A DNA stretch of 32,960 nucleotides from positions 1-32,960 of the IMG/VR virus record IMGVR_UViG_3300026116_000077. One strand, given 5' to 3'. How positions within the stretch are numbered: the first letter of the stretch is position 1; every line of letters starts with the position of its first letter. The translations under genes were made by a program, and so were the position numbers. Shown piece by piece: positions 12,594 to 31,956 of the stretch. This DNA comes from a virus. The notes under the pieces were generated by a model, which was given only the letters and a program-made list of their open reading frames with translations, searched no databases and had not been told where the DNA came from.

Positions 12594-14345
12594 TTACGGG
12601 CAAGTGAGGGTTCCAGTGCTGGTGGTCTTACCACTCGGGCAGATCGGCACGGTGTAGACCCGGCTCAGTGGGCACATCTGAACCATGGCCCAACCCGTCT
12701 CCGTGAAGAGGTGGGTGACCTGGTTGGTGGCCAGCTTGGTCGAGTCGTAGACCGAGTTCAGCGTGATCACGTCCGAGACGGCCCGGATCCAGGTGCCCGA
12801 CGGGAACACCAGGAACTGGAACGACTTGGGCAGGAAGTTGATCGGGGTCGACGCACCCGGTCCGGTACCGGACAGGGCGGCCGTGCTGAACGCGTCCTGC
12901 CAGTCGTACACGTACTGCACACGGGCACCACGGGTGGTGTAGAAGGCGTTGATCTCCGCATCGGTCAGGTTCGGGTCCTGCACGAACGGGCGCCGCATCC
13001 AGTCAGCCCGCATCTGGGCCAGAACCCACCACGGCATGATGACCTCAAGCGTGGCGTTGCGGGCCATCCGCAGCCGGTACTTGATGTCGGTGATGGCCAT
13101 CTCCACCGCGCTCATGATCTGAGAGGTGGTGGAACCGTCAGTGGCCCACGGAGCCTGAGCGGTCAGGTCGACCGCCGTGGAACCAGTGACCACGTCAGAA
13201 ATCTGCTCACGGTTGATCTGGTGAGCGGAGGCGGCCATGGCGCCACGGGTGAAGGTGGCGGTGTACTCCGGGTAGCCACGGATGGCCAGGATGTTGCCGG
13301 TGAGGCACAGGCCCGTCACGCCGAGACGAGTGTCCACGAACGACGGACACGGGATCTCGATACAGGTCTTGGTGGTACCAGAGGCAACCTGAGCCTCAGT
13401 GAGGTCGAAGAAGCCGTTGGGGGTCTGTCCACCCTGGACACCGAAGATGGTGGAGAAGTCCAGACCGGTGTTGTGCCGGATGCCGCCACGCCGGGCCTGA
13501 ACCTCAGGGAAGTCCGCGAGACCGTCGGTGGTGATCTGGAGGCAGATGTCGTAGTCCGTCTCAGACGGAGCACACCATCCCTGGGCGGCCACGATCGCGT
13601 CACGCTCAGGCTGCTCGGCCTTGATGCGCTTGCGGTCCAGCTCCACGCTGGCCAGGAGTGATCCACCGGGCAGGCGGGACTCGTCAGCCACCTTCAGCAG
13701 CTTGTCGTAGTCCGTCTGGTCTCCGTTGACGGAGAACTCGTCCGGGTAGTTGCGGATCAGGGTGGCGACGGGGGACTGGATGGGGCCGTTGCTGCTCTTG
13801 ACCCCGCTCTTGTCCATGCTCTGGTGCGACGCGCTGCGGGCCTCGAAGATCTTGGCCACTTCCAGCATCGTCGTCAGGACCTGGCCGTTCTCGAACGACC
13901 CGTCAGCACTGGACGTGCTGGCCGCTGCAACCAGCGTGGACATGGGCACCCGGTTCGGGTGCGGCAGCTCAACATCCTGGCCGCCACCGTTGGCCTTGAT
14001 CTTGGCCACGGTCACCTTGGTGGAGGCGACAACCGCGTCAGCGGGCTCCTCAACCTCGGCCTCGGCCTCAGCCTCAGGCTCTTCCTCGGCGTCTTCCTCC
14101 GGGTCCGTGGTCGCAGCAGCGAACCGGTCGGACACCTCGCGGCGCACGGAAAGCTCATCGGGGATGGTGGTGAAGACGAAGCTCTGAAGGTCCTCAAGAC
14201 GGGTCAGCTCTTCGACCGTGATGGTCTCAACAGCGACCGTCGACTTGAGGTTGTCGTATTCGGCCTTGGCGACACGGCGAAGGTCTTCGAGACCAGCGAT
14301 GGAAAACTGGTCAAGACTTTCCGGGTCGGGAATCTGGAAAGGCAT
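12594..14345 (-). CDS. Major capsid protein with N-terminal scaffold-like domain
   Basis: This 583-aa protein is long for an HK97-fold capsid subunit. Residues 1-125 are helical and charged, with an acidic run at 81-101 (EDAEEEPEAEAEAEVEE). This looks like a fused scaffolding or delta domain, and no separate scaffold gene is visible. Residues about 180-583 are the capsid domain: SPVATLIRNYPDEFSVNGD, DRKRIKAEQPERDAIVAAQG, RNATLEVIMPWWVLAQMRAD, FLPKSFQFLVFPSGTWIRAV, NSVYDSTKLATNQVTHLFTE and the Cys-containing end SRVYTVPICPSGKT. The FxFLVFPSGTW and YDSTKLATN strings are familiar from actinophage capsid proteins. ATG 14345 is preceded by AGGAG beside a stem-loop. The N-domain is expected to be removed by the protease at 22309-24702, an inference. 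Confidence 0.88.
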   Translation of the reverse strand: MPFQIPDPESLDQFSIAGLEDLRRVAKAEYDNLKSTVAVETITVEELTRLEDLQSFVFTTIPDELSVRREVSDRFAAATTDPEEDAEEEPEAEAEAEVEEPADAVVASTKVTVAKIKANGGGQDVELPHPNRVPMSTLVAAASTSSADGSFENGQVLTTMLEVAKIFEARSASHQSMDKSGVKSSNGPIQSPVATLIRNYPDEFSVNGDQTDYDKLLKVADESRLPGGSLLASVELDRKRIKAEQPERDAIVAAQGWCAPSETDYDICLQITTDGLADFPEVQARRGGIRHNTGLDFSTIFGVQGGQTPNGFFDLTEAQVASGTTKTCIEIPCPSFVDTRLGVTGLCLTGNILAIRGYPEYTATFTRGAMAASAHQINREQISDVVTGSTAVDLTAQAPWATDGSTTSQIMSAVEMAITDIKYRLRMARNATLEVIMPWWVLAQMRADWMRRPFVQDPNLTDAEINAFYTTRGARVQYVYDWQDAFSTAALSGTGPGASTPINFLPKSFQFLVFPSGTWIRAVSDVITLNSVYDSTKLATNQVTHLFTETGWAMVQMCPLSRVYTVPICPSGKTTSTGTLTCP

Positions 14346-14357
14346 GTTCCTGCTCCT

Positions 14358-14374
14358 AGAAGTTGATCACTTCT
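14358..14374 (-). promoter_or_regulatory. Stem-loop adjoining the capsid gene ribosome binding site
   Basis: AGAAGT and ACTTCT form a perfect 6-bp stem with a 5-nt loop. In the mRNA it ends exactly where the AGGAG Shine-Dalgarno (14357-14353) begins, leaving the site free. Such a 5' stem commonly stabilises mRNA or keeps the ribosome site open; the role is inferred. Confidence 0.5.
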
Positions 14375-14380
14375 GGTGCA

Positions 14381-14426
14381 GGCCCATAGCTCAGCCACCA
14401 CTCCAAGGCCCGGCCCATAGCTCAGC
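14381..14426 (-). repeat. Pair of 15-bp direct repeats upstream of the capsid gene
   Basis: GGCCCATAGCTCAGC occurs at 14381-14395 and again at 14412-14426 (start-to-start 31 bp, about three helical turns). Equal spacing on one face of the helix suits cooperative protein binding, so these could be operator half-sites for late control. They resemble a tRNA 5' end on the plus strand, but no tRNA follows. Confidence 0.6.
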
Positions 14427-14475
14427 GCCCGATTAGAACGGATCATAGATCCATTAGTGGTGCTTTACAAGGGGG

Positions 14476-14616
14476 TCATACCTGGGAAGCCAGGACCGCC
14501 AACACGACCACGAAGGCCCCGATCCAACCAAGGTCAAATCGCGTTGGAATCTTGGCCGCACCACCAAGGAAAAAGATCCCGGCCACAACCCACAGAATTA
14601 TCTGGATGACGTTCAT
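14476..14616 (-). CDS. 46-aa membrane protein with two transmembrane segments
   Basis: An ATG at 14616 overlaps the stop of the preceding gene (ATGA), and the frame runs 46 codons to TGA at 14476. The product has two hydrophobic helices, MNVIQIILWVVAGIFFLGG (1-19) and LGWIGAFVVVLAVLASQ (29-45), joined by a basic turn AAKIPTRFD. This is a helical hairpin of the size of very small holin-like or leader membrane proteins. Position beside the capsid gene rather than a lysin argues against calling it a holin. Function is unknown. Confidence 0.65.
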   Translation of the reverse strand: MNVIQIILWVVAGIFFLGGAAKIPTRFDLGWIGAFVVVLAVLASQV

Positions 14617-14780
14617 CGCGACACCATGCTGTACGTACCACCACCGGCCATCGTCACTGCGACCTTGGCAGCGTGCTCACCGCTGACGATTTCCGTGCGC
14701 CCATTAGGGAGCCGGACCTCAAACTTCGGCTCCTCGGCCGACACAGCCTGGCTGTCCCCACCACCGCATGCACAAGGCAT
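14613..14780 (-). CDS. 55-aa protein with CxCGGG N-terminus
   Basis: An ATG at 14780 follows a very good site (AAGGAGGGGCC) 10 nt after the giant gene stop. The 55-aa product starts MPCACGGGDSQ, continues FEVRLPNGRTEIVSGEHAAK and ends TMAGGGTYSMVSR. Short proteins with an MPCxCGGG start and one beta-hairpin with a helix are frequent next to capsid genes in actinophages. The CxC could hold a metal or form a disulfide. I know no demonstrated role. It is coupled by ATGA overlap to the following membrane protein. Confidence 0.7.
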   Translation of the reverse strand: MPCACGGGDSQAVSAEEPKFEVRLPNGRTEIVSGEHAAKVAVTMAGGGTYSMVSR

Positions 14781-14789
14781 GGCCCCTCC

Positions 14790-17700
14790 TTAGCTGAAGT
14801 GGTCAGTAAACCACTTTTCGAAAGCCTTACGTACAGGATCATCAGGCCCAACCCCAGCCTGTTGCAACTGCTGAAGGATCTTGCGATACAGGTCAGGGAC
14901 CTTGCTGTAGTCCCCGGGCACCCGGGCGTACCGATCCAGTGTGCGCAGGTCCTGACTCTTACCACTGCCCAGTCTGTTCTGAAGGGTCAGGAACGTGCTG
15001 ACCGGGACGCCCTCACCCGGGGTGAGACCCTTCGCCGTCACGTTGGCCGTGGGGGCGGCCGGAGCCTCGTTACCAGCCTTGGGCACCGGGGAACGTAGCT
15101 CCGCCTTGGTCACCGTTGGGGCAGCCTTAGCCGCCTTCTTGGCAGCCTTAGCCGGTGCCGGGGTGGCCTTGGCCGGCTCGGGAGCTGCCGGGGTTGCTCC
15201 ACCACCACGGATCCACTTGCGCACCTCGGCGCTCTGGTTGATGGGTGACAGCTTCCCGGATTCACGCTGAGCCCAGTACACGCCATCGCCCGACTCATGA
15301 ACACGACCACTTGCGTGTTCAATGGCGCGCTTGGCCTCGTCGTAGTTCGGGTCGTTTCGGTCCCCCTTGGAGATGATCTTTACCGAATCCAGGAGGTGTT
15401 GCATGGGGGTCTTGCCCTCACGAACATTTGTGCGGTCGTGGTAGGCCGGGATCTCGTTCACCTTCTCCAGGAAGTCCCGCACCTGAGCCGGCGTGTTATC
15501 CGGGAGGTCAAGCTTGCTCGGCTTGGTATCCAAGCCGGCTACGGCCTGGTTGATCCGCTCCCGGACCTGAGCATTGCCAGGCTTGATGTCGCGGATCAGA
15601 GCCCGGGCCGTAGGTACGTCGATTTTCCCATCGTGCAGTTGCTGGCCAATCTCAGTGATCTTGTTGAGATCCGGCGTTGACACACGGTCATCGCTGGCAA
15701 GGTCTTTCCACAGTCCGCCAATCTCGGAATCCATGTGAATGAGACCCTGATCGGCGGACCATCTACCGTTAGGCGCCTTCAGGTCATCGCCCCGGCCAAA
15801 GGTGGCAGCGCTCGTGCCCTCGTCGAACCGGACACGGACACTCTTCACCGGTCCTTTATCCGAGATGAAGGGCTCATTGAATCCACCCTTAGCCAGGACC
15901 GCTGCACCCTCACCGGCACTGGGGGCCGCCTTCTTGGCGGCTCGGGCTTCACGCTCGGCAGCAATGGCAGTCTTCGTAATCTCAGAAGGATTCGATCCAC
16001 CAAGGCGCACATAGGCCGCATGCTCCAGGCGGGTTGTCACGGTGCGACGCAGGATGTTCTCTCGCAGCTTCGCAATGCTGTCACTGGGCCGAACCTCAAT
16101 GCCCACCTGCTTGGCAAGTTCCTGATACGGGCCTTTCTTGTTGCCCATGCTTTCCAGGATGTGACGACCCTGGTCCACAGTGGTGGCATTGGCCAACTGG
16201 GACTCAAACGCACGAGAGGTGGGAGTACCCGCCTCGGCCTTTGGAGCTGCCTTCACAGCCTTGGCTGCATTGAGCCGGGCCAGGTTGGCAGCAACCTCCT
16301 CCTGCTTGTTGGTCGGAAGCTCAGCAACGGGGGCAGCCGCCGGGGTCCGCTTGCCAGCTCGGATTGCAGCGTTGTTCTCCCGCTGGCGTTGTGACCGGGC
16401 AATGACAGCCGCCCGGGTCTCCGCTGGCAGGCTGGCAATCGCATCACGCCGTTCCCCGGCCAGGCGATCAAGCATCTGCTGTTTCTGCTCCGGGGTGGCC
16501 TCAAGAACCCCGGCTGGGTGGGCCTGGAAGGCCCGACCTTCCACGGTGCCCTGGTATCCGGGGCTGATGACCTGAACCGCCTGCCCCTTACGAGGTGACG
16601 AGTCGCCCATACCCCGGTGCTTTCCGGGCTCGAAGGGCTCCACAGTTCCGACCGGGCCAGTGTTACGAGTCAGGCCGTGCTCCGAGGCGATCCGGTCCAG
16701 CTCTGCCTGGTCTCCGGCCACGGCTGCCCGCTCGATGCGCTGAGCCAGCTCTGGGTCGCTGCGCCCTAGTTCCGAGCCACGGACACGGTGGCTCACAGCC
16801 CGTTCGCTGGCCCCATTGTTCAGCAGTTCATCCACAGTGGACAGTGTTGATCCAATGTTCTTCACCCGGTTCGCCGCCTCCATCCGCGAGCTGACCCGCG
16901 CAACTTCCGGTCGAGCCCCGGGCGCCCCACTGATGACATCCCCGCCACTACCGAACCGGCGCTCCACCGCCTTCTTGAGGATGTCATCCTTCGACCGGCC
17001 GGTGATGCCCATGGGCTTAGCCCAGTCGCGGATCTCAGACAGCAGCAGATCCTGGCGCATGTTGGTGGCCGCCTGCTCAGCCTCAGCGCGTGTGGTGGAG
17101 GCGTCCCAAGCCTTCTGGTGACGGTCCAGGACACGCTGCTTCAACTTCTCAGCCTCGTCCCCGGCCTCCTTGACCGCAGCCTCAGCGCGGGCCACGGCCT
17201 TCTTGGCGGCCGGTTCCTTGACCGTCTCCTTGGCCTTGGCCAGGTCCTCAGCAGCAGCCTTAGCCGGGGTGCGGGTTACCCGGGGACGCTTAGCTTCGGC
17301 GACCTTGTCCGCAAGCTGACGAAGGTTAGCGACCTCCTCCGTGCCAGCACGGTACTTCTGGTCCAGTTCGGCCTTATGCTCGGGAGAAGTGCGACTGGCA
17401 TCCACCCCGCCATTGATGATGGCATTGGCGTCAGACATTCTTTGGGCGCGATCGCGGATGTTCTGGGCAGCCTTGGCCGGGCTCATGCCCTGGTTCAGAT
17501 CACCTTGAGCCGCATCAATGTGTCTCTGGTCGATGTTCAGGTCCCCAGCAATGGCCTTCGCATCCAGGTGCTTGGCCCCACCGGGACTGAACTCCTCAAC
17601 GGCCTTGGCCTTGGCGGCCTCCCGGGTGACCTTCTGGGCATTGCGAGCTTCCTTGGCAGCGGCCCGCTTGTCCAGTTCTCCCTTGATGGTCTGCTTGAGA

Positions 17701-20700
17701 GCGTCCTGGAAAATCTCCTGAGCATTGCTGCCCTTGGCATCCAGGCCGGTCTCCTCCTTGAGGACCCGACGGAACTCTTCCGGGTCTTCCTTGTTGAGGT
17801 TGTCCCACCACTTCTGGCCTTGGGCGTCAATGATTTTGCCCTGCACCTCAGGAACGGTCACCCGCTCCTTGCCGAAGTGCTGATGCAGAAGCCGGGAGGC
17901 AGCTTCCTGGGAGTCGACACTCTTCAGGAGCTTGTCCCGCTTGGTGCGCAGGTTCGCGATCTCAGACTCAGACAGGTTGCCGGTACGAATCTCGCGGGCA
18001 ATGTCATTTGCCTCATTGTTATTGAGTTCAATGTCTGATTCGAGGCGACGGATGCCTTCCTCGGGGCTGTAGTTTCCCTTTGCCACACTGCGTCGAACCT
18101 CATCGATGGTTCCTTGGGACGTCTTGTCCGGTGCAGCGGGAATCCGGGCCTTCTCCCATGCCTGATCAAACTCAGACGCCCGTGGCTTGTTATCAATTGG
18201 CTCAGAGCCACGAGTGCCCACAGACCCGTCAGGGATGTCCTTGGCCACCTTGGCCCGGGTTGCCTTGACCGTTGGGGTGGGTACGTCGGGGTGGGCCTTC
18301 TCAGCCTGAGCCACGGCCTCCTTGGTAACCAGCGGTCCCTTGAATCCACGGGTTGCCTGGGAATCGATCTTTCGGCCTACGGTGGCGTCAACAATCTCCC
18401 GGCGCAGATTGTCCTTGGTCAATGTTCTGGCGCGCGGAATGTTGAGGCCATCAGCCTGGTCCATGAGCTGAGCCTTGGTCAGGCCACGGAGCAGGCCATC
18501 AGCTTCCTCGCGGGAGATCGGGTTCTCCGTCTGCTCCCGAAGGACCCGCTTGATCTCAGCGGCATCGGGAGCAAGCTGTGCCCCACCGAGCTTGCCCTGC
18601 CGAAGGACCTCCGCCTGGCTACGGCCACGAGTGGGCTGCTCCCCAGGGGCGGCAGCCTTAGCGGCACGACGGGCCTCGGTCGGGGTCTCCTTGCGATACG
18701 AGGTACCACGAGGGGCCTCCGGCACCGTGTCCATCTCATTGCCCGCGTTGTCGCGGACCCGGACACTGCCATCGTCGTTCTGCTTGACCACATCAACCGG
18801 GAACCCGGCCTTGTCCCCACGCACCATCTCCGGGACAAGGTTGCCTTCGGAGTCCCGTTCAACCATGACCCGGTCACCGGGCGCCAGGTCACGGCTCCGA
18901 ATCTTCGGGCCGGTCCGTCCACTGGGGACCAGTCCTTCTCGGGCCAGCTTCATCTCCCGGGCCTTAGCTGCCCGTGCCGGAGTCCCGACGGCGGGACCAG
19001 CCTCCCCGCTAGGAGTCAGACCCTCCCGCGCCACGGCAGGACCAGGAGCAGCAGCCTTACGGGGGGCAGTCAGTTTAGGACCAGGGGTCCCCTCCTCACG
19101 TGGGCCTGGAAGGGAGGAGGCTTTGCGTTCCGCAACGCGCTTCGCTGTGGCAGCCTTAGTACCAGCCGGGGCCCGAGTAGGCGCCTCCTCGGCCAGGCGC
19201 CGGGCCTCGGCCTCACTCATACCGTCAGCGATGTGCTGCTTGCGGACACGCTCCTGGTGAACACTGAGCTTCTTGGCCGGTAGGGCCTTCTTGACGGCCT
19301 TGGTTGCCTTCTTGGTGGGGGGTGCCGCCTCCACGCCAGAGATGATCTGAGCCCGCATGCCCATGGCGTCGCTGAGCTTCTGGAGCCGGCCGGCATCGGT
19401 GGGGTTGTCCGCAGCCTTAGCCATGGCCTCCAGTTCATCGGAGGCGTTGCGTAGCGAGTCAGGATCGTCGGGGCTGACACCATCCACAATGGACTTAGCT
19501 TCGTCGGGAACCTTGACACCCTTGATGTCCTCATCAAGGGAAGTCAGCGGCTTCTCAGGGCGAAGAGCAGCACCCTCAGGGCCGCGAAGATCCTTCAGGA
19601 TCGCGTCCTTCATGCGGTCCTTAGTAGTGGCCCCCTTGAGGCTGATGCCGTTCTCCTTGGCCAGGGCGCGGAGGTCAGCGACGGTGTGCTCCTCCAGGAG
19701 GGCATTTGCCTCCTGCCCAGACTTGGCGGCCTGGAGGTGGGGCGTCAGCTTCTCCGGGGCAATGGCTCCCAACTTCCCGCCAGTGCCTACTTCCTCGCCG
19801 AGCAGTGCCCGCTGCAACTGCTCCTTGTTCATAGTGGAGAAGCCACGAATCTTCTTCTCCCGGGCAGCCTGACGCAGGGCCGTCACCGTGTTCGGCAGAC
19901 CAGCCTCGTCGGCCCGGGTCTGAACCTCACTGACAGCCTTGGCGGCCGGGGCAGCCTTGGCCACCTTGGCAACCTTGGCCGGGGCAGCCTTGGCCGCCTC
20001 GGGGGCCTTCTCCGGTACGGCCTTAGCTGCCTTGGTGGCCCGTGGCGCCTTCTCCTCGTGGCGCCGGAAGGCAACATTCCCGGCATGGGACTTGGTGCTG
20101 ATGTCATTACCCTCGGCGTCCTTGCCGTGGATTATGTAACCACGCCGGGGAGTCCTGTAGACACTTCCCGCCGACTCCTGGCGCATCTCGACACGATCAA
20201 CCGTGATGGGCGTGGCGCCAGTCTTGGTAGTAGTTCGCTCCCACTTATCATCCTTGTTCTTGCGGACAAGGATCGTGTCACCCTTCTTCATATTGACCGG
20301 GTTGACGGTGGGGTTCTGCTGCCCGGTCTCAGCACGACGGGCAGCAGCAGCAGCGTTCTTCTCGGTCTGAGACGTAGGAGCTGGAGCCTTTGGAGCCGGG
20401 GCCGCCTTCTCGGCAGTCTTAGCCGGGGCCTTCTCCCCCTTCGCACCGGTTAGGGCAGTGGCATGTTCCTGGCCAGCTCGACGACGAGCCAGGTACTTGG
20501 ACCGTCCACTTTGGTCAAGGCTGTCGTAGGCGGACCGTTCTGACGGGGTCAACTCCTTGACCGAGGTGAAGCCCTTCTTGGCCGGGACCGCCTCAGGGGT
20601 CGGCGCAGCAGTCTCAGGCTTATGCGCGCGGGGGGTGTTGAAGTGCTCGGCAATCAGGTCGGCAAGCTTCTCCTGCTTGGTGACGTTGGCCCGCAACTCC

Positions 20701-22055
20701 TCATGCGGAACCTTGCCCTCAGGCCCGGCGAGAAGAGTCTTGTTCTTCTCAATGTCCGCGTCCAGTTCCCGCAGAGCATCGGCAGGGTCCTTCTTGCCTC
20801 CGGTTACACCGAGATAGGCGTCGTTGAACTCCTTGCGCTGAGGCCCAGCGGTGGGCGACTGAAGCCCACGCCCCTGGAACTCCTGCTTGAAGCTGGCGGC
20901 CGACGCCTGAGGAGCCGGGGCAGCGGGAGCAGGGGGCGCCTCAGTCGGAGTGTTGGCAATCTCGGACGCGCTCTTACCCTCGGTGGGAACACCACCGATG
21001 GGACCGTGCACGGGCTCGGTGCGTTCCCCGACACCGGCCGGTGGGGCCGGGCTCGGAGTAGGAGTGACCGCCTCCGGTGGAGGAGCGGCTACCGGGGCCG
21101 GGGCGTTGATCTGCTGCTGCTCGTTGGCTACAGCCTTCTGGTAGCCAGCACGGCGGGCTTCACGGGCGGCCTGGCGGGCAGGAGTTGGGGCCGGTCCGGG
21201 AGGTGCGGGCTCAACACCCCTCACGCCAGGCTGCTGGTAGTCGGCGGCGATGTCGACCTGACGTGGTGGAGCACTGGGCGGCTCGGCCGGCTGTGGCATG
21301 ACACTGGGCCCACCGATGCGGGCCTGCCGCTGCTCGGGGGTGAGGTTGGCCCCCTTGCGACCCTGCACGATCTCATTGGGGGTACCGGTGGTGGCGCCGC
21401 TTGGTTCGGCCACGGCGGTCATGTACCAGCCACCGGAACCGTCCGGGTAGACCCGGGTCACCAGTAGCTTCTGATCCTTGTCCAGGAGCACGCCACGGTC
21501 GTTACGGTTCTCACCGATGTGAGCAACGTTGACGCCTTGGGGGACCGCGATCCGCATGGTGATCTTCCCCGGCCCATGGGACATGTCAGAGCCCAAGTGG
21601 GTGGGGGAGAAGGCCTTGTCGGTGATCGTGTTTCCGGTCATACGGATGATCCCATTGGGATCAGTCTCATTCAACTGTTGCGGGGTAAGGCCCAACGCTT
21701 CCGGGGTGAAGGTGCGACCAAGGATCAGGCCTTCCTTGGTGGGGTGCATTCGCTTGCTAACCATGTCCACGTACTGCTGAGTCAGGGGATCAATTTCCCC
21801 GGCTCGCATATGGTCAGCAGCTTCATCCCAGTCCATGCGTAGGCGGCGAAGCTCCAGCTCGTTGAACGCACCACCAGGCTGAACACGGGCAGAGTTGAAG
21901 TTGAACTGGGCGGCCTGGCCGTCGCTCTGGAAAGTGCGGGGCGTGGAGGACTTCAGCAAATGATCAAGCCAGGGGGCCAGCTTGAACTTCTTGATGAAAC
22001 GACCGTGGAACCCCCGTGGGTGGAGGTTCGGGTCCCAATCGCCGAAGCCCGGCAT
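14790..22055 (-). CDS. Giant multidomain head protein with ART-like N-terminus (2421 aa)
   Basis: This is the largest gene in the window, between the capsid protease and the capsid gene. Residues 1-22 carry a WDPNLHPRGFHGRF start often seen in MuF-associated proteins. Residues about 60-218 resemble an ADP-ribosyltransferase toxin fold: R114 in LILGRTFTPEAL, GNTITDKAFSPTHLG for the STS segment, ITMRIAVPQGVNVAHIG, and LLDKDQKLLVTRVY where ExE is expected but not seen. The remainder is Ala/Pro/Lys-rich linker (for example 250-400 and 2310-2360) joining small modules. Five SAP/Rho-N-like units lie near 708-755, 788-825, 1180-1225, 1653-1702 and 1957-2005. Two SH3/KOW-like units lie near 588-668 and 1056-1128. 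A coiled block is duplicated at about 392-472 and 1298-1398. There are no transmembrane segments or signal peptide. An internal, possibly injected, virion protein is inferred; DNA condensation is an alternative. Confidence 0.85.
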   Translation of the reverse strand: MPGFGDWDPNLHPRGFHGRFIKKFKLAPWLDHLLKSSTPRTFQSDGQAAQFNFNSARVQPGGAFNELELRRLRMDWDEAADHMRAGEIDPLTQQYVDMVSKRMHPTKEGLILGRTFTPEALGLTPQQLNETDPNGIIRMTGNTITDKAFSPTHLGSDMSHGPGKITMRIAVPQGVNVAHIGENRNDRGVLLDKDQKLLVTRVYPDGSGGWYMTAVAEPSGATTGTPNEIVQGRKGANLTPEQRQARIGGPSVMPQPAEPPSAPPRQVDIAADYQQPGVRGVEPAPPGPAPTPARQAAREARRAGYQKAVANEQQQINAPAPVAAPPPEAVTPTPSPAPPAGVGERTEPVHGPIGGVPTEGKSASEIANTPTEAPPAPAAPAPQASAASFKQEFQGRGLQSPTAGPQRKEFNDAYLGVTGGKKDPADALRELDADIEKNKTLLAGPEGKVPHEELRANVTKQEKLADLIAEHFNTPRAHKPETAAPTPEAVPAKKGFTSVKELTPSERSAYDSLDQSGRSKYLARRRAGQEHATALTGAKGEKAPAKTAEKAAPAPKAPAPTSQTEKNAAAAARRAETGQQNPTVNPVNMKKGDTILVRKNKDDKWERTTTKTGATPITVDRVEMRQESAGSVYRTPRRGYIIHGKDAEGNDISTKSHAGNVAFRRHEEKAPRATKAAKAVPEKAPEAAKAAPAKVAKVAKAAPAAKAVSEVQTRADEAGLPNTVTALRQAAREKKIRGFSTMNKEQLQRALLGEEVGTGGKLGAIAPEKLTPHLQAAKSGQEANALLEEHTVADLRALAKENGISLKGATTKDRMKDAILKDLRGPEGAALRPEKPLTSLDEDIKGVKVPDEAKSIVDGVSPDDPDSLRNASDELEAMAKAADNPTDAGRLQKLSDAMGMRAQIISGVEAAPPTKKATKAVKKALPAKKLSVHQERVRKQHIADGMSEAEARRLAEEAPTRAPAGTKAATAKRVAERKASSLPGPREEGTPGPKLTAPRKAAAPGPAVAREGLTPSGEAGPAVGTPARAAKAREMKLAREGLVPSGRTGPKIRSRDLAPGDRVMVERDSEGNLVPEMVRGDKAGFPVDVVKQNDDGSVRVRDNAGNEMDTVPEAPRGTSYRKETPTEARRAAKAAAPGEQPTRGRSQAEVLRQGKLGGAQLAPDAAEIKRVLREQTENPISREEADGLLRGLTKAQLMDQADGLNIPRARTLTKDNLRREIVDATVGRKIDSQATRGFKGPLVTKEAVAQAEKAHPDVPTPTVKATRAKVAKDIPDGSVGTRGSEPIDNKPRASEFDQAWEKARIPAAPDKTSQGTIDEVRRSVAKGNYSPEEGIRRLESDIELNNNEANDIAREIRTGNLSESEIANLRTKRDKLLKSVDSQEAASRLLHQHFGKERVTVPEVQGKIIDAQGQKWWDNLNKEDPEEFRRVLKEETGLDAKGSNAQEIFQDALKQTIKGELDKRAAAKEARNAQKVTREAAKAKAVEEFSPGGAKHLDAKAIAGDLNIDQRHIDAAQGDLNQGMSPAKAAQNIRDRAQRMSDANAIINGGVDASRTSPEHKAELDQKYRAGTEEVANLRQLADKVAEAKRPRVTRTPAKAAAEDLAKAKETVKEPAAKKAVARAEAAVKEAGDEAEKLKQRVLDRHQKAWDASTTRAEAEQAATNMRQDLLLSEIRDWAKPMGITGRSKDDILKKAVERRFGSGGDVISGAPGARPEVARVSSRMEAANRVKNIGSTLSTVDELLNNGASERAVSHRVRGSELGRSDPELAQRIERAAVAGDQAELDRIASEHGLTRNTGPVGTVEPFEPGKHRGMGDSSPRKGQAVQVISPGYQGTVEGRAFQAHPAGVLEATPEQKQQMLDRLAGERRDAIASLPAETRAAVIARSQRQRENNAAIRAGKRTPAAAPVAELPTNKQEEVAANLARLNAAKAVKAAPKAEAGTPTSRAFESQLANATTVDQGRHILESMGNKKGPYQELAKQVGIEVRPSDSIAKLRENILRRTVTTRLEHAAYVRLGGSNPSEITKTAIAAEREARAAKKAAPSAGEGAAVLAKGGFNEPFISDKGPVKSVRVRFDEGTSAATFGRGDDLKAPNGRWSADQGLIHMDSEIGGLWKDLASDDRVSTPDLNKITEIGQQLHDGKIDVPTARALIRDIKPGNAQVRERINQAVAGLDTKPSKLDLPDNTPAQVRDFLEKVNEIPAYHDRTNVREGKTPMQHLLDSVKIISKGDRNDPNYDEAKRAIEHASGRVHESGDGVYWAQRESGKLSPINQSAEVRKWIRGGGATPAAPEPAKATPAPAKAAKKAAKAAPTVTKAELRSPVPKAGNEAPAAPTANVTAKGLTPGEGVPVSTFLTLQNRLGSGKSQDLRTLDRYARVPGDYSKVPDLYRKILQQLQQAGVGPDDPVRKAFEKWFTDHFS

Positions 22056-22057
22056 TA

Positions 22058-22312
22058 CTACGCTCCCAACACGCCCGTATCAAGGGTGGGCCGTTCAACT
22101 GCTCCGTACCGTGCGTCCAGCTCTGCTGCTGTCAACCAGGCCATTGGATCACCCGCAGCGGCATCTGTTTCTGATTGACCTCCACCTGGTGGTGAGTTGT
22201 CGGGAGGGGGGGTAGGGGCCTGCCCCGGCGCCGCTGCCGGGGGCGTACCGGGAGCCCCCGGGGCAACAGCGGTGGACTGGGGCACCGGGGCAGGAGCCAT
22301 GGGTGCGGTCAC
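22058..22312 (-). CDS. 84-aa Pro/Ala-rich protein
   Basis: The frame starts at GTG 22312, overlapping the protease stop (GTGA), and ends 2 nt before the giant gene. The first 55 residues are almost entirely Pro, Ala, Gly and Gln (GAPGTPPAAAPGQAPTPPPD), and the last 30 form a folded-looking end GDPMAWLTAAELDARYGAVE. The composition is that of a disordered linker followed by a short binding helix. It may be an adaptor peptide between head proteins, or the remains of a once-fused C-terminal tail of the protease. I do not recognise it. Confidence 0.6.
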   Translation of the reverse strand: MTAPMAPAPVPQSTAVAPGAPGTPPAAAPGQAPTPPPDNSPPGGGQSETDAAAGDPMAWLTAAELDARYGAVERPTLDTGVLGA

Positions 22313-24702
22313 TGCTGTGCTGCTTCCTGATCGGCCGCGAAGATGGCGTGGAGTCGGAGCTGGCGGTCGCGCTTCTCGTAGATTTCACTGTCTTCGATGA
22401 GATCACGGAGGCGCTGTGCGCGGTACTCCTGCGTGTCCTCCTCATCCCAGCCAGCGGCGGAGAAGGCGTCGTTCACCGCGTCCTGGATCAGACCAGTGAT
22501 ACCAGTGGTGGGCGGACCGGCATACTCGAATTCGTCATCCTCGAACCACACCGATCCAGCCGCTACAAGGGCGGTTCGCTCATCGTCTTCCATGCTGTAG
22601 ACGGGGAAAGCTGGGGCGTTAACTGCGAGGGCCGCAGTAAGTTCCAGAGATCCACCTTCCCGACGCCAGTCACCTGAGAGAGGAGAACGACGGAGCTTAG
22701 CAACCCTTTGGGGAGTTGCTTCTGGGACGATGGCTCCAGAAAACCAAATCCCGAACTGGTCCTCACCGCAGCGAATAGCTGCAATCTCATCGCCAGTGTT
22801 GTCGTAGTGCAGTGCGGCAGCAGCGTAGCCAAGGTTGATACCGGCGTGCCGGGTGTCCATGACGATCTTTCCAGTGTCAATGACTTCACCCTCTGCCGTC
22901 AGAACCGAACCAAGGTGGAACGGCCGGTACTCCTGCTCCGAGTGAGGAGCCAGGACACACTCCCGCATGGTCACGTCCCGGTGGCACTCATTCCAGGCCG
23001 CCAGGTGACCAAACACATGACCATCCTCAGTCACCGTGAGCTTGGTCTTACGAGTCAGGTTCGGGTTCTCAAACCAGGCCTTGGGCGGGTGCACCGGGAT
23101 TCCAGTGGCCGAGTAGGCATCCCCCCCCTTGCTCTTCTTTTCCTTCATGCCTTCGTCAGCTCCACTGGAGTCGGAGATTTCAATACCAGCCTTGGCAGCG
23201 GCAGCCTTGATCCGCTGCTTGATGGCAGCCAACTGGTTCGGCTTGTAGAAGGCCGCATTCTTGGGCACGTTGATGTACGCCCAAGCGCTACGAATGTGGT
23301 CCGGGTTATCGATCGGGTACTTCTTCTCACCGTTGTAGCCCGGGTCGGCGTACTTCACGTCGCCGTAGGGCTCTGCGGCTGCAAATTCATCCATGGCGAG
23401 CTGTACACCTTCCTGAGCTGAACGGTCCCAAGGCGCCCGGAGACTGGCATCCCCAAACGACTTGGACATCTCCGCATAGATGTCGGAGATCGTGGAACGG
23501 ATCTTGGTTACGTCCTCCGGGCTCACGTCCGGAAGGCCACCGTGGGCACCTGACATCAGAGCAGCGGCGGCGTAGATGGCGTGGAAGATCACCGTCAGGT
23601 TGCCGTTGATGATGTCCCCCACCGGCAGCCGGTAGCTGGTCGGGTCCAGGGCGTTCCCCGTCGGGGAGAACCACATGAACGCCTTACGCATCTTGTTCGG
23701 GTCACCGGCCGCCCATGCCGTGATCCGCTTCACCGCGTCGTCGTTGTCGAACACGGCCTCACGGGGGGCCAGGGGGAGGCCACGCCACCCTGAGGTGTTG
23801 ACGGTGTACTCGTTGCCCGCTGTAATGACCTTGGGTGCGGCCTTCTCCGGGGTCAGGGGTGGCCCAGAGTGGCCGCACCCACAATCCTCTTCCGGCCCGT
23901 TCATCGACATGTCCATGTCGTCGTCCGGCCAGTCCCCGTCACCGTCGAACACGTACAGACCGGACTGGGTGAACGCCGGAATTGGCACCAGGGTTGAGCC
24001 ACCGATGCCGAACTTCAGCATGTGCTCCTGGCCGTTCTCCGGGTTGACGGTGGCCGTCACGTCCCCACCCGGGTCCAGGCTAGGACCCACCACTCCCATC
24101 TGAGCCAGGTACCGGGCCTTCTTTGCCTCCGGGATGATTTCGTCGTCAAGGAAGTCGCCCCAGCCCCAGCAGCACTCCTGGCCGTTCTCATCGGGGCCGT
24201 AGGTCATGCCCAGGATCCGACCCACAGTCAGGCCCCCACCATGGCCCGGGCCCTGGCGCTCACGCCAGTCCAGGGGCAACGGGAGCACCCGGTGGTACAG
24301 GGCACCAGGCTCGAAGATCCGGGAGCGCCGTGGCTCCCCAGTGGGGCGTCCAATGGGCGCCATCAGACCGGCCCACGTGTACTGACCAAGACTCGGCTGC
24401 TTGGCCAGCAGCTCCTGAGCGGCCACCAGGGCGTCCATGGTTTCCGAGGTCATGGCCGCCACGATGCTGTGCTTCAGCTTGCGGGGTTCCAGTGAGCCGT
24501 GGCCGGGAGGGCCCCCTGTTGCCTTGGTGTGCAGGATGTTGCACAAGCCTTCAGGGTCGGTGGGGAAGTACTTACGCAGGTTCCGCACACACCGCTTGAA
24601 ATCCCCTGGAACATTCCAGCGGATCTTCGCAGCACCCTTGCCGGCGAGCCAGTACTTCTGGAGCTGAAGCGGCATGCCCCGGGCTGGGTTCGGATCAACC
24701 AC
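22309..24702 (-). CDS. Multidomain capsid maturation protease
   Basis: This 797-aa protein starts at GTG 24702 (GAGGTG upstream), overlapping the MuF gene by 8 nt. Residues 25-80 contain KIRWNVPGDFKRCVRNLRKY and GLCNILHTKATGG, a small domain common in actinophage head proteins. Residues 100-270 include RVLPLPLDWRERQGPGHGG and ARYLAQMGVVGPSLDPGG. Residues about 461-509 match a DUF6582-type unit (NPDHIRSAWAYINVP, IKQRIKAAAAKAGIEI). Residues about 555-705 carry the protease signature: GHVFGHLAAWNECHRD, DTRHAGINLGYAAAALHYDN, GIWFSGAIVP and SGDWRREGGSLELTAALAVN. The C-terminus is acidic and helical. It would cut the capsid N-domain during maturation. The catalytic residues are not assigned, though conserved H and S lie in the cited motifs. 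The fusion of several head modules in one chain is notable. Confidence 0.75.
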   Translation of the reverse strand: MVDPNPARGMPLQLQKYWLAGKGAAKIRWNVPGDFKRCVRNLRKYFPTDPEGLCNILHTKATGGPPGHGSLEPRKLKHSIVAAMTSETMDALVAAQELLAKQPSLGQYTWAGLMAPIGRPTGEPRRSRIFEPGALYHRVLPLPLDWRERQGPGHGGGLTVGRILGMTYGPDENGQECCWGWGDFLDDEIIPEAKKARYLAQMGVVGPSLDPGGDVTATVNPENGQEHMLKFGIGGSTLVPIPAFTQSGLYVFDGDGDWPDDDMDMSMNGPEEDCGCGHSGPPLTPEKAAPKVITAGNEYTVNTSGWRGLPLAPREAVFDNDDAVKRITAWAAGDPNKMRKAFMWFSPTGNALDPTSYRLPVGDIINGNLTVIFHAIYAAAALMSGAHGGLPDVSPEDVTKIRSTISDIYAEMSKSFGDASLRAPWDRSAQEGVQLAMDEFAAAEPYGDVKYADPGYNGEKKYPIDNPDHIRSAWAYINVPKNAAFYKPNQLAAIKQRIKAAAAKAGIEISDSSGADEGMKEKKSKGGDAYSATGIPVHPPKAWFENPNLTRKTKLTVTEDGHVFGHLAAWNECHRDVTMRECVLAPHSEQEYRPFHLGSVLTAEGEVIDTGKIVMDTRHAGINLGYAAAALHYDNTGDEIAAIRCGEDQFGIWFSGAIVPEATPQRVAKLRRSPLSGDWRREGGSLELTAALAVNAPAFPVYSMEDDERTALVAAGSVWFEDDEFEYAGPPTTGITGLIQDAVNDAFSAAGWDEEDTQEYRAQRLRDLIEDSEIYEKRDRQLRLHAIFAADQEAAQQ

Positions 24703-25408
24703 GGGTCACCTCGTTTCCAATGTGCAGCTCACACCGGCAATTGATAACCAACTCTGGTGGGGCCGATGGATCCCCTGGAAACATCATCGGCACACCATCG
24801 ACGTAGAACGGGTACCAGACCGGCACCGTCACTCCGTCAACTTCCTGGTGTGGGGATCGCACACGGTTATCGTCCTTGGTGTCCCATCGCTTGGTCAACT
24901 GTCGACCGGTTACTCTGGCCTGTTCGATACCGGCCGCCATGGTGCCCGCACCATAAGCACGGTTGACCTCGGTCTGGGCAATCACTTTGGCTCGGTTCGG
25001 CCAGCGCTCAGAGCCCGTGTAACTGAGTACCTTGTCAACCCTCGCCGCGATCTGATTCCTGCTCTCGCCAGCGTTGGTGCCGTCGGTAATTTCGGCAAAG
25101 ACAAGGTTCGCAACCTCGTCGGGAATGCGCACGAGCAGATTCTGTACATCCGCCAGGTAGCTGACAACGAAAGCGTGGCGTGAAACTGGAGGGACTTCAG
25201 TCGCAGAACTCCAGGCGCTGACACCAATTCGCCCGATCTCACTAAGGATGGTGTCCACTTCGGAGTCCCAGTTGGACTGGAGTCCATAGATCGCAGTTGG
25301 ATCTGGACTTCCTGACCGGGTGACAGCGGCACGTGCCTTGTCGAGCCATCGGCGCAGTGCACTGCCAACCGTTGCACCAAGAGAACGCTCATCGTCAGCC
25401 CTGCTCAT
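24695..25408 (-). CDS. MuF-like head morphogenesis protein
   Basis: This 237-aa protein is a short phage Mu F (SPP1 gp7) family member. The N-terminal half is helical. The core has VIAQTEVNRAYGAGTM at 142-157, the usual A-x-T-E-x-N/R motif. It is followed by KRWDTKDDNRVRSPHQEVDG at 173-192 and PMMFPGDPSAPPELVINCRC at 207-226, giving the W-D...H..DG...PGD...NCRC signature complete. Family proteins bind the portal and are packaged in few copies. It starts at ATG 25408 within the end of the portal gene (14-nt overlap). No toxin domain is attached here; an ART-like domain is found instead on the giant protein two genes downstream. Confidence 0.88.
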   Translation of the reverse strand: MSRADDERSLGATVGSALRRWLDKARAAVTRSGSPDPTAIYGLQSNWDSEVDTILSEIGRIGVSAWSSATEVPPVSRHAFVVSYLADVQNLLVRIPDEVANLVFAEITDGTNAGESRNQIAARVDKVLSYTGSERWPNRAKVIAQTEVNRAYGAGTMAAGIEQARVTGRQLTKRWDTKDDNRVRSPHQEVDGVTVPVWYPFYVDGVPMMFPGDPSAPPELVINCRCELHIGNEVTRG

Positions 25409-27305
25409 GAAGGAACCCGGCTCTGGTCAGGTACTCCTGCAATAGATAGACGTGGTGTGGCTTCTGTCGCGTCAGCAAAGTGGTGCAGTATCGGTCGAGG
25501 GCCGCTCGCAACGCCTCGGAGTCCAAGGTCGGGTCCACTTGTTCCGCCAGAAGCGAGAGATGGTCCCAAGCGTTGGCCAGTACCTTATGGGCGTGCGCCT
25601 CGTCGCGGACCTGGATCTTGGTATGCAGCTCGTACGGCGGGCACGTGAATTCGGATCGATGTTGGTTACCTACCAGCCTCTTCCCCGCCAGCTCCAGGGC
25701 TCGCAGGACGGTGGCGTTACTGACGACGAAGACGTTGAGAGGTTGCACGCTCACTGATGCAGTGAGCCCGGCCGGGGTTCCTGCCGGGGCCGGAGGTGGC
25801 CCCCCTGGTGCGTTCTGTGCCTCGGTGACTTGTGGCATGGGCGGACCTGAGGTGTCACTGATCCCGGTCGGCGGAGCCGGTGGCGGGGGAGCACCGGCTC
25901 CGCCTTGCTGTGGCGGGAAGACCTTGTCCGGAGGTAGAACCTGGTCCGAGATACCGATCAACTGACGAACCGCAGGGATCTGGAACAGGTTCGGGTCTCG
26001 CAGCATCAGTTCCTTGACGAACTTCTGAGAAGCCTCTTCGTCGGTGGGCGCGTCAGAGTCCTTGTAGTCCCCCGCGATTCGTACCGCTTGTGCTGATACA
26101 AGTCCGGCGTCATACATTTCCCGAGTTTCCTTGAGGCGCTCGGGCCGTACCGTCAGTGGAGCTGTGTCGTACCAGAGGACGTACTTCTCGGGGTCTTCCT
26201 TGATCGACTTCAGAGCTGGAAGCAGATAGGCTTGAGTCAATGCGTCACATATGCGACTCGCCAGCGGTTCAATGTGAACCTTGATCTGGCCTTCCATGAT
26301 CTGCCAGGCACCCCAGTGGTTGGCCTCTCCGGCACCACTGAGAATCGACGGGTCAATGTCCATCGCCAGAGCGAAGCGGCGGATGGCTTCGTTGCGAAGT
26401 TCCAGGGCCTGCTTGGATAGCTCCGACGTGAACTGGATGAGCTGGAGCTTGCCCAAAGCCTCCAGCGGCATCTCCACGATGGTGGGAACCACCCCGGCCG
26501 CTGTGCCCTCGCCCCGCAGTGACGCGGAGGCAAACCGCATGATCATCTGAGTGAGGGCCTCGGCGCCATCCACCGAGTTCCCCTCCTCGTCCGGGAAGCT
26601 GGTCTCCTTGGGAATGGCGAGCAGGCCGGCGGACACCAACCGGGAGTCGATCTGGGCGAACACGTACCGGGTCAGACGCTCGATCTCAAACAGCATCGGC
26701 ATGGCTCCCCGGGTGGGGGAGTCCGACCACATAGTGCGGCGTGGATGGGGGGTCCACGTCCTGATGATCATGTCAGTCTCGGGGTCCAGCTTCCCCGGGT
26801 CCCCCATCATGTTGGTGATCTCGTTCTGGCCTGAGGTCGTGTACCGCTTCAGCTCCGACCGGCTCAGAACGAACCACTCATCTGACTGTGGATCATCAGT
26901 GCTGCGGCCAATGAAGTAAGCGTCCCCGGCAATAGTCAGGTTGATCCCCGCCAGCCGGATCAGCTCAGGTCGACGGGCCGGACCTCCCAGCAAGGTGTCA
27001 GCCAGGGCGGCCACCTTGACCTTCTTGGTCTCCGCCTGAACCCGGCCGTTCTTGTCAACCTCGGCCACATAGAACCGGACCCGAGACAGGGCCGAGCCAA
27101 TCCAGTTGGCTACGAACCGCAGTTCACCGATGACGTCGTATAGCCTCCAGGCCTCGTTCTGCCAGGAGTCGTCACCGAACTTGTACGTGGGCCAGGCTCG
27201 CCCCTCAATGTTGGTGATCCTGATGGCCGCAGCGACCAGGCTCTCAGAGGCGTCGTGCCCAGTGGTGACTGGCACCAACGATTTGCGGGACCGGCCTAGT
27301 GCCAT
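25395..27305 (-). CDS. Portal protein
   Basis: This 636-aa protein forms the dodecameric DNA gate. The portal core covers about residues 1-465: YDVIGELRFVANWIGSALSR near the N-terminus, GDAYFIGRSTDDPQSDEWFV, then the stem region and the well-conserved LAMDIDPSILSGAGEANHWG and HIEPLASRICDALTQAYLLP. Residues about 470-525 are a Pro/Gly linker (GGAGAPPPPAPPTGISD). Residues 535-636 form an extra helical domain (VVSNATVLRALELAGKRLVG, LSLLAEQVDPTLDSEALRAA, YLTRAGFLHEQG) not found in typical portals, perhaps for MuF or scaffold contact. The ATG at 27305 overlaps the membrane protein stop (TGATG). Confidence 0.9.
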   Translation of the reverse strand: MALGRSRKSLVPVTTGHDASESLVAAAIRITNIEGRAWPTYKFGDDSWQNEAWRLYDVIGELRFVANWIGSALSRVRFYVAEVDKNGRVQAETKKVKVAALADTLLGGPARRPELIRLAGINLTIAGDAYFIGRSTDDPQSDEWFVLSRSELKRYTTSGQNEITNMMGDPGKLDPETDMIIRTWTPHPRRTMWSDSPTRGAMPMLFEIERLTRYVFAQIDSRLVSAGLLAIPKETSFPDEEGNSVDGAEALTQMIMRFASASLRGEGTAAGVVPTIVEMPLEALGKLQLIQFTSELSKQALELRNEAIRRFALAMDIDPSILSGAGEANHWGAWQIMEGQIKVHIEPLASRICDALTQAYLLPALKSIKEDPEKYVLWYDTAPLTVRPERLKETREMYDAGLVSAQAVRIAGDYKDSDAPTDEEASQKFVKELMLRDPNLFQIPAVRQLIGISDQVLPPDKVFPPQQGGAGAPPPPAPPTGISDTSGPPMPQVTEAQNAPGGPPPAPAGTPAGLTASVSVQPLNVFVVSNATVLRALELAGKRLVGNQHRSEFTCPPYELHTKIQVRDEAHAHKVLANAWDHLSLLAEQVDPTLDSEALRAALDRYCTTLLTRQKPHHVYLLQEYLTRAGFLHEQG

Positions 27306-27639: not shown

Positions 27640-29067
27640 CTAATACAAGTTGGTCAGATCGTAGAAGCTCTGGTCCATCCGGAACTCGTAAATGTTGGGG
27701 TTGGCCACCCGCATTTCCCTGCGCTCACCGGCCATCAGCTTGATAGCGGCGTGCACCATGGCATCCATCCTGTCTGGACTTTCCCTGGTGGATTCGGGGT
27801 CGAACAGGACCATTTCCTTCTCCAGCTCGGGCCAGTCCCCCACCATATGCAGCCGACCCTGCTCGTTTCTCATGGCCACCGGCTCGGCCCGCGTCTTCTT
27901 GCCGTGCTTCGCATGAACTGCTTGCATGGGAGGGGAGGTATGCCGTGGGAAGTAGTCCTGGTCAATCAGCTCCCGGTAGGCATCCCGAAGGACCTCCTCC
28001 AGGTACCGCTTACCAAGGTTCTCCTCATACACCAGGACATCGGCCGCGAACTCAGCCACCGCCTTCCACGCCTCAAGTACAGCCGCTCGGCCAGAGTGTG
28101 GCGTCGAACGGTCGGCCAGGACGTAGAGGTGCTTGTCTCGGGTTCGGGCCACCACGACAATTCCGAACGTGGCATCCTCACCGGTCAGGTTAGGGTCACA
28201 ACCGACCACAATGGACACAATGTCATCAGGAGCATCAACGACGCGGTTCTTGATGATGTCCTTGCGCTGGAACAGTCCCCCACCAGCCAGCTCCAGGAGC
28301 TTGCCGTACAGCTCCTGCTCTCCGATCGCGGTGCCGTCGTACTGCCGCTTCATCTCAGTCAGGGCGTGACTAGACAGGTTGGAGGCGTTGTCGAACGTGG
28401 AACCGGTGATCAGGTGAACGGTCCCGTCGACCCGGGCAACCCAATCCTCCAGCAGAGCGATTGGCTTAGGAGTGGTCGTGACGAAGGCGCGCGGGTGGTC
28501 ATCTACAAGGTCCGCGCGGAGGGAGGGCAACAGGCCGTGGTACCAGGTCTCGTATGGCTTGAGCCACTTGGCCAACTCGTCGCAGAGGATCCCGGCAGCG
28601 TTGTACCCACGTCCCGTGTCCGGTGTGTCTGCACCTTCGAGGTAGATTTTCGCACCCTTGGGGAACAGGATCATTGGCCGAGGATTCTGCTTATATCGGT
28701 GCTGGATCCCACGTCGTTTCAGAACGTTGAGGATTCCGGAGGGGCCCTCAGCATTGATGGTCCTGGCGTCGGCCAAGGTGTCAGCGACCACCAACCATTC
28801 AGTGGGGACCCCTTGCCGATCAAACGGGTGCTTCTTGACCCGGTCCACGATCCATTCGCTACCGGCTCGGGACTTGCCGAACCCACGTCCGGCCAGGGCT
28901 AGGCACACCAACCAATCACCAGGGGGGGGTACCTGCTCAGGTCTGGCGGTCCACCACCACTCCTCATTGAGGATGTCGCGCACCATCGCCGGGGGCAGGG
29001 ACTTGATCCACGCCTCACGATCGTTTGCCGGCAACAGGGCCACTCGCTCTGCGAGTGAGAAGGACAC
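27640..29067 (-). CDS. Terminase large subunit
   Basis: This 475-aa packaging motor is complete in both domains. The ATPase shows Walker A at 60-66 (GRGFGKS), Walker B and catalytic Glu at 159-164 (GILCDE) and a coupling motif VTTTPKP at 196-202. The nuclease shows D291 in VVGCDPNLTG, E348/E349 in VLVYEENLGK and D435 in DRMDAMVHA. It starts at GTG 29067; upstream there is no clear Shine-Dalgarno, and an ATG 8 nt upstream is out of frame, so this may be a near-leaderless start. It is the first gene of the minus-strand block. No small terminase is visible in the window. Confidence 0.95.
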   Translation of the reverse strand: MSFSLAERVALLPANDREAWIKSLPPAMVRDILNEEWWWTARPEQVPPPGDWLVCLALAGRGFGKSRAGSEWIVDRVKKHPFDRQGVPTEWLVVADTLADARTINAEGPSGILNVLKRRGIQHRYKQNPRPMILFPKGAKIYLEGADTPDTGRGYNAAGILCDELAKWLKPYETWYHGLLPSLRADLVDDHPRAFVTTTPKPIALLEDWVARVDGTVHLITGSTFDNASNLSSHALTEMKRQYDGTAIGEQELYGKLLELAGGGLFQRKDIIKNRVVDAPDDIVSIVVGCDPNLTGEDATFGIVVVARTRDKHLYVLADRSTPHSGRAAVLEAWKAVAEFAADVLVYEENLGKRYLEEVLRDAYRELIDQDYFPRHTSPPMQAVHAKHGKKTRAEPVAMRNEQGRLHMVGDWPELEKEMVLFDPESTRESPDRMDAMVHAAIKLMAGERREMRVANPNIYEFRMDQSFYDLTNLY

Positions 29068-31855: not shown

Positions 31856-31956
31856 GGTGCCATGATGAGCCATCACGGTGGCCTTCCGGGGGCTCTTGAT
31901 CTGCCAGTTACCGCCACAGTGACCGGGTGTCTCAGACCCCATGGAAGGGAGTTGCT

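Follow-up and report, generated by a model that had tools for sequence, protein, structure and literature searches.

A cysteine-free giant protein encoded among the head genes of an IMG/VR phage: a candidate head-packaged, ejected protein of polyvalent type

Polyvalent proteins are very large multidomain products encoded among the virion genes of portal-terminase phages, for which packaging and injection have been predicted (Iyer et al. 2017, PMC5512222). T4 Alt is head-packaged and injected (PMC5512222), and a 2022 survey reported Alt/VIP2-type ADP-ribosyltransferases (ARTs) both as fusions to MuF and in the neighborhood of head genes (PMC9503650); head-packaged ARTs as such are therefore already known. 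The N4 virion RNA polymerase (vRNAP) is a giant beads-on-a-string protein, and translocation in this form has been described (PMC12633501). N4-type vRNAPs lack cysteine, which has been attributed to injection through the tail (PMC3915230) and was also remarked upon in PMC4837373. Burro gp27 is a giant actinophage virion protein of more than 4400 amino acids (aa) whose gene adjoins the portal gene, and a protein of approximately 250 kDa is present in Burro virions (PMC7302621). Here we describe a protein comparable to these, encoded in the virus record IMGVR_UViG_3300026116_000077 (the window, which is the whole 32,960-base record) by a single minus-strand open reading frame (ORF) at 14790..22055 with an ATG start. 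It has 2421 aa and no cysteine, and is referred to below as the giant.

Like polyvalent proteins, the giant is very large, has many domains and is encoded among the virion genes of a portal-terminase phage. It also shares with them Rho-N/SAP DNA-binding units and, in its relatives, ART, Nudix and zincin-like modules. It differs from them in having tandem SAP units, called infrequent in PMC5512222, in being separate from MuF, in being cysteine-free and in carrying no recognised enzyme in the window copy. Alt/VIP2-type ARTs are absent from genuine polyvalent proteins according to Iyer et al. (PMC5512222). The Alt/VIP2 type of its ART, together with the lack of a recognised enzyme in the window copy, is why the giant is set apart as a variant. 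The N4 vRNAP, T7 gp15/gp16 and P22 gp7/16/20 are cysteine-free virion proteins as the giant is, but family scans of the giant list none of the N4, T7 or P22 families, and the window phage, unlike those phages, has a tape-measure gene. T4 Alt and the VIP2/MuF-fused phage ARTs (for example that of Microbacterium phage Percival) have the same fold as the N-terminus of the giant, which lacks their catalytic Glu and MuF fusion and carries approximately 2200 further residues of modules. The likeness to Burro gp27 is one of description, and Burro-type phages, in contrast, are podoviruses. Gp48 of the cultured Streptomyces phage Gilgamesh (MN234216; L221:9007-22881; loci are designated by L and a number) is a cysteine-free protein of 4624 aa, encoded one small gene behind a portal-MuF fusion, with the same N-terminal tag as the giant (HPRDxxGRF, see below) at residue 37. 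It differs in that nine module profiles of the window family all fail to match it, and it yields a single weak Pfam row.

The giant is probably a polyvalent-type protein that would be packaged in the head, anchored to DNA and ejected through the tail. The initial annotation, made from the DNA alone, had proposed either a protein packaged in the head and ejected with the DNA or a DNA-compacting internal protein. We favor the former because the conserved slot, the effector modules of relatives, the tag and the exclusion of cysteine agree; their support is indirect, and packaging itself is predicted from them.

The protein has a predicted mass of 259 kDa and a pI of 9.5. Several features named in the initial annotation hold. 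At 7266 bp, its gene is 3.8 times the length of the 1911-bp tape-measure gene (2640-4550; 636 aa; PHROG tape measure match, E 3e-29), close to the fourfold ratio noted there. It lies between the genes for a protease-related head protein (22309..24702, minus strand; 797 aa, with DUF6582) and the major capsid protein (12594..14345, minus strand; phrog_777, E 2e-119). No membrane segment is present (highest 19-residue Kyte-Doolittle mean 0.62), and modules of normal complexity are interspersed with linkers rich in A, K, P and E. Net charge is modest and patchy. The reading frame is kept in four relatives under purifying selection, so its coding status is well supported.

Relatives of the giant were found in IMG/VR only, where a search with the capsid protein gave at least 79 loci. 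Forty of these (L011-L045, L053, L056, L059, L069 and L085) were chosen as one group by capsid similarity and ORF layout, and the other 39 were not counted as carriers. An ORF of at least 1000 aa occupies the slot before the capsid gene in 39 of the 40 (34 distinct giants once duplicates are removed); the remaining locus, L036, has 519 aa there. Outside the chosen 40, L055 has an ORF of 1693 aa with the tag inside. A second IMG/VR search used an N-terminal alignment with the tag as its sole pattern and is therefore tag-biased. It kept 80 loci, of which 79 were examined after exclusion of L094 (27 matched residues). These contain 60 distinct N-termini, with MuF, portal or protease genes upstream in 54 and not in six. 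Thirty-one of the 54 genes are complete and 30 of those are followed by the capsid gene; in the exception, L238, gene and contig end together. Family members that follow these head genes range in length from 519 aa (L036) to 3601 aa or more (L285, truncated by the locus end). The L285 giant is in a stretch of a 104.7-kb contig and follows MuF, portal and protease genes. A role as a genome-length ruler is not supported (size against record length, Spearman 0.37, p 0.15, for 16 records whose completeness is not known).

No giant occupies the slot in five cultured phages with a related capsid or protease (phiAsp2, Twister6, DSL-LC01, PIS 136 and Kithara). Comparison of the giant and of the L029 N-terminus with 50,697 phage records by tblastn gave no match, a scan of genome contigs for the N-terminal family with the tag as the only peptide pattern gave no relative, and a partial literature search covering few subscription journals found no published account of the family. 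DSL-LC01 (L099) encodes a giant of 3289 aa upstream of its portal region, beside head genes, with no Pfam domain over the cut-off. Microbacterium phage Leaf gp58 (1300 aa), encoded before the capsid gene, looks protease-like by eye and has no Pfam match at E 0.1.

The N-terminus of the giant is a degenerate ART domain (residues 41-219; 21399..21935, on the minus strand as are all features of the giant given below). The initial annotation had called this region ART-like, which is correct for the fold and not for the enzyme. Residues 1-240 alone match PF03496 (ADPrib_exo_Tox) with E 5.1e-6 and 26.4 bits against a cut-off of 23.4, and 22 of 33 aligned N-termini match it at E 0.01. In a scan of the whole protein PF03496 does not appear at E 0.01, and the PHROG ART family reaches E 0.13 only. 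A profile of the N-terminus finds Vip2 in the PDB at E 2.5e-13. The AlphaFold2 model of the domain (pLDDT 83, pTM 0.80) superposes on C3 exoenzyme (Z 17.6, 178 aligned residues, 2.1 A) and also matches phage ARTs, among them that of the Percival ART-MuF fusion. R114 is kept. In the Vip2 alignment the ExE motif, the second Glu of which we take to be the catalytic residue, falls on D186-R187-G188, so that Gly188 stands at the catalytic position. Of the 34 giants, 11 have this Glu and 26 have the Arg. A broader set of 50, chosen by the tag, gives 19 and 40, with both residues in 16, and the ARTs of some family members may be active. Between the window and L007, the domain has 41 synonymous and 4 non-synonymous changes (dN/dS 0.025). 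As judged from these alignments, the ART domain of the window giant is a pseudo-enzyme kept for another job, putatively as a docking domain or header.

The tag precedes this domain (WDPNLHPRGFHGRF, residues 7-20; 21996..22037). It is predicted with low confidence (pLDDT 47-58), as expected of a linear motif. In all 33 aligned N-termini a W is followed by HPR[DG]xxG, then R/K and F/W; W7, HPR and G18 are invariant. The spacing from W to H is five residues in the window (WDPNLHPRGFHGRF) and eight in most members (WGTREELLHPRD). At the DNA level, scanning for the pattern HPRDxxGRF gave at least 80 loci, and all counts of non-family tags here are among the matches listed. Of 84 listed instances with enough upstream sequence, 26 are family-like by a regular expression and 58 are others, 48 of which have W or F at position -5, outside the search pattern. 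Part of the instances are in short or doubtful frames. Ten carriers were scanned with Pfam and ten with PHROGs, in overlapping sets. The tag follows MuF (L116), portal (L150), a protease-type region (L101) and Nudix (L141), and it precedes a Zeta-toxin domain (L144), an ART (L109) and a polyvalent ART (L128). In L168 (RelA/SpoT, weak MuF) three copies lie downstream of the domains, and three of the ten carriers scanned with Pfam have no recognised domain. Of 49 non-family tag records, 30 match MuF or portal at E 0.001, in some cases below the cut-off. The tag is within 3 kb of the match in 23 of these 30 (11.2 expected) and, among records of at least 30 kb, in 12 of 17 (3.0 expected at random). 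The accessible parts of PMC5512222 and PMC5576092 do not mention the tag, and a literature search of partial coverage found no prior statement of it. In the 25.6-kb contig IMG/VR 3300035693_000027 (L161/L153), there are six DNA-pattern matches in several neighboring frames and seven protein-level instances over the two loci, with MuF and portal matches upstream.

These distributions tentatively suggest that the tag could be a general head-loading (or protease-processing) signal, N-terminal in free cargo and at a junction downstream of portal or MuF domains. Taken together with the avoidance of cysteine, it might allow ejected proteins to be recognised from sequence, and the pseudo-ART would be a non-catalytic docking header. 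Our confidence in this general role, low from the start, was reduced a little further because in other phages the tagged proteins are low in cysteine but not free of it.

Modules downstream were delimited by iterative in-house profiles over the 34 giants. The five 45-residue units of the initial annotation correspond, by profile search, to five SAP/Rho_N-like units of the DNA-binding type, at residues 722-755 (19791..19892), 782-821 (19593..19712), 1184-1226 (18378..18506), 1657-1698 (16962..17087) and 1962-2006 (16038..16172). The full set comes from two iterative profiles combined. One of these profiles finds units in 33 of the 34 giants and at E 1e-6 retains four units in the window giant. 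Pfam Rho_N scores 37.2 bits on the window giant (cut-off 24.9), with its best stretch at 723-747 in the first unit (E 2.9e-9), and at E 0.01 it matches 21 of 28 giants. The other four units, the third to fifth among them, are based on in-house profiles and, for part of them, also on phrog_2724. In the PDB, an alignment of 27 units hits Rho N-termini (E 2.4e-4 and 3.8e-4) and a phage FluMu protein (E 0.0097), and the units are predicted to bind DNA. Two homologous helical repeats, A (398-472; 20640..20864) and B (1317-1394; 17874..18107), are present as a pair in 31 of the 34 giants. A conserved helical C-terminal block (2100-2264; 15264..15758) is found in 28, and searches of PDB and BFVD with its model (pLDDT 73) give no fold match at E 0.001 or below. 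An exchangeable module occupies residues 589-660 (20076..20291) and appears, by eye, to be resembled by residues 1055-1118 (18702..18893). Rarer modules of the window giant (e.g. 1800-1910 and 2345-2421) occur in 3 of the 34, the window included. Matches to Glyco_hydro_28 and Prot_ATP_ID_OB_C were below cut-off and were dropped.

Relatives carry effector-like modules on the same framework. Additional ARTs are present in L021 (952-1076 and 1952-2118), L027 (532-647 and 1252-1405) and L044 (1564-1676); in all three proteins ART scores over the cut-off with the best stretch in mid-protein, and by eye these domains show R, STS-like and xxE motifs and look intact. L021 also has a Nudix domain (PF00293, E 2.6e-11). 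Zincin-like C-termini with HEFGH or HEYGH are seen in L027 and L041, the latter with a weak Peptidase_Mx match below the cut-off (E 0.005). Disparate domains thus share one polypeptide in L021 (ART and Nudix) and, by motif, in L027 (ART and zincin-like). Kinase-like C-termini of the NPDRH..GNW type, noticed by eye in L014, L029, L039 and L040, are a lead only, as PF00454 is below the cut-off (L029, L014 and L039 scanned singly). A similar DRH..NW motif is at 2130-2160 of L100 (Pumpernickel gp82), also with PF00454 below the cut-off.

Comparison of close relatives indicates that modules are exchanged between phages, as seen directly with L006 and L008. L006 is identical or nearly so to the window giant outside residues 495-708 and only 40% identical in 585-665. 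For L008, identity is 93-100% outside 911-1125 (75-79%) and 1236-1400 (78%, then 40%, the latter in residues 1290-1400 of the window giant).

The 34 giants contain no cysteine in 63,470 residues, and a wider, overlapping set of 54 slot proteins contains none in 72,678. In the same phages cysteine makes up 0.72% of portal, 1.14% of MuF, 0.79% of protease and 1.64% of capsid proteins; with five further structural types, each also represented more than twice, these nine types span 0.59-5.56%, with one cysteine-free protein overall. Only the tape measures are alike, with 1 cysteine in 16,908 aa and 25 of 26 proteins free of it. At 0.67% cysteine, a stretch of 2421 residues would be free of it with a probability of 9e-8, relatives not being independent. 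Cysteine is also lacking in the N-terminal fold by itself (6290 residues) and in nine effector-like segments; therefore, linkers do not explain its absence. As a control, 42 chosen proteins of T7, P22, N4 and lambda, not all genes of their stretches, were counted: 11 ejected proteins have 2 cysteines in 8805 residues and 31 other structural proteins have 95 in 14,127. Lambda gpH, an ejected protein as a matter of general knowledge, is included among the former. Ejected status was otherwise taken from record notes and from PMC12633501 and PMC8402733.

Three other explanations of the giant were considered. It might be an internal scaffold or core protein that builds or sizes the head and is then removed or cut by the head protease, its SAP units keeping it near DNA or partners. 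The interval between protease and capsid genes is the usual place of a scaffold, the giant has a low-complexity make-up, and the scaffolds T7 gp9 and P22 gp8 are likewise cysteine-free. We nevertheless think this unlikely, since the size ranges over 519 to at least 3601 aa downstream of the same head genes and does not follow record length significantly in the 16 records above, since relatives carry ART, Nudix and zincin-like modules, and since the slot contains no giant in the five cultured phages with a related capsid or protease. A similarly small chance is given to a DNA-compacting protein that stays in the head as a histone-like condenser of the packaged genome. The pI of 9.5, the Lys/Ala-rich linkers and the five SAP/Rho_N units would suit it, but the net charge is modest and patchy and cysteine exclusion fits ejected proteins. 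This second proposal of the initial annotation is less favored because relatives carry enzyme modules, which are of no obvious use to an inert condenser. That the N-terminus is an active ADP-ribosyltransferase toxin, modifying a host target like T4 Alt, agrees with the ART fold and with R114. It is very improbable given Gly188 at the catalytic Glu position and given that the Glu is absent from 23 and the Arg from 8 of the 34 giants, yet the domain is under strong purifying selection.

Several observations weigh against head packaging and ejection. Pfam and PHROG family scans recognise no intact enzyme in the window giant. The absence of cysteine is a signature neither specific nor strict, because the T7 and P22 scaffolds lack cysteine and the ejected T7 gp14 and gp6.7 have one each. 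The N4 capsid protein and several small control proteins, three small window proteins (84, 128 and 164 aa) and one of 22 homologues of an 881-aa tail-region protein are also cysteine-free. Tagged ORFs outside the family are cysteine-poor (111 in 35,642 aa), with 9 of 38 lacking it, and 19 of the 49 non-family tag records have no MuF or portal match.

If the giant is packaged and ejected as we favor, its loading, DNA binding, ejection and host function could be as follows. It would be made alongside the head proteins, and the tag and pseudo-ART header would take it into the procapsid. Its five SAP/Rho_N units, a family assignment from which DNA binding is predicted, would hold it on or near the packaged genome. 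Its small cysteine-free domains on flexible linkers would allow it to be threaded through the tail with the DNA. In relatives, the enzyme modules on the same chassis (intact-looking ART, Nudix and zincin-like) may act in the new host. The cargo of the window giant is probably its DNA-binding units, which might protect, organise or guide the entering DNA, plus other modules, because no intact enzyme is recognised in it. Exchange of modules between phages would diversify the cargo.

The order of genes on the minus strand is terminase (27640-29067), a small ORF, portal (25395-27305; phrog_776, E 7e-152), MuF head protein (24695..25408; PF04233), protease-related protein, an 84-aa ORF (22058-22312), the giant, major capsid protein, major tail protein and, further on, tape measure. 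The gap of approximately 440 bases between the giant and the capsid gene (14346-14789) has one sigma-70-like match where 0.3 are expected and no terminator-like site. A DNA polymerase/primase frame on the plus strand (31927-32958) is cut off by the record end. A scan of genome contigs with the capsid protein gave one Streptomyces contig (32%), and an actinomycete host is only a guess from capsid matches.

To our knowledge, how head-loaded proteins delivered to the host are selected is known for few models (T4, T7, N4 and P22). The giant family offers a fixed chassis, consisting of the tag, the pseudo-ART header, the DNA-binding units and the C-terminal block, with exchangeable cargo in one conserved slot. 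Its two sequence marks, the short tag and the avoidance of cysteine, might predict ejected proteins in other phages, which could be tested on a cultured phage.
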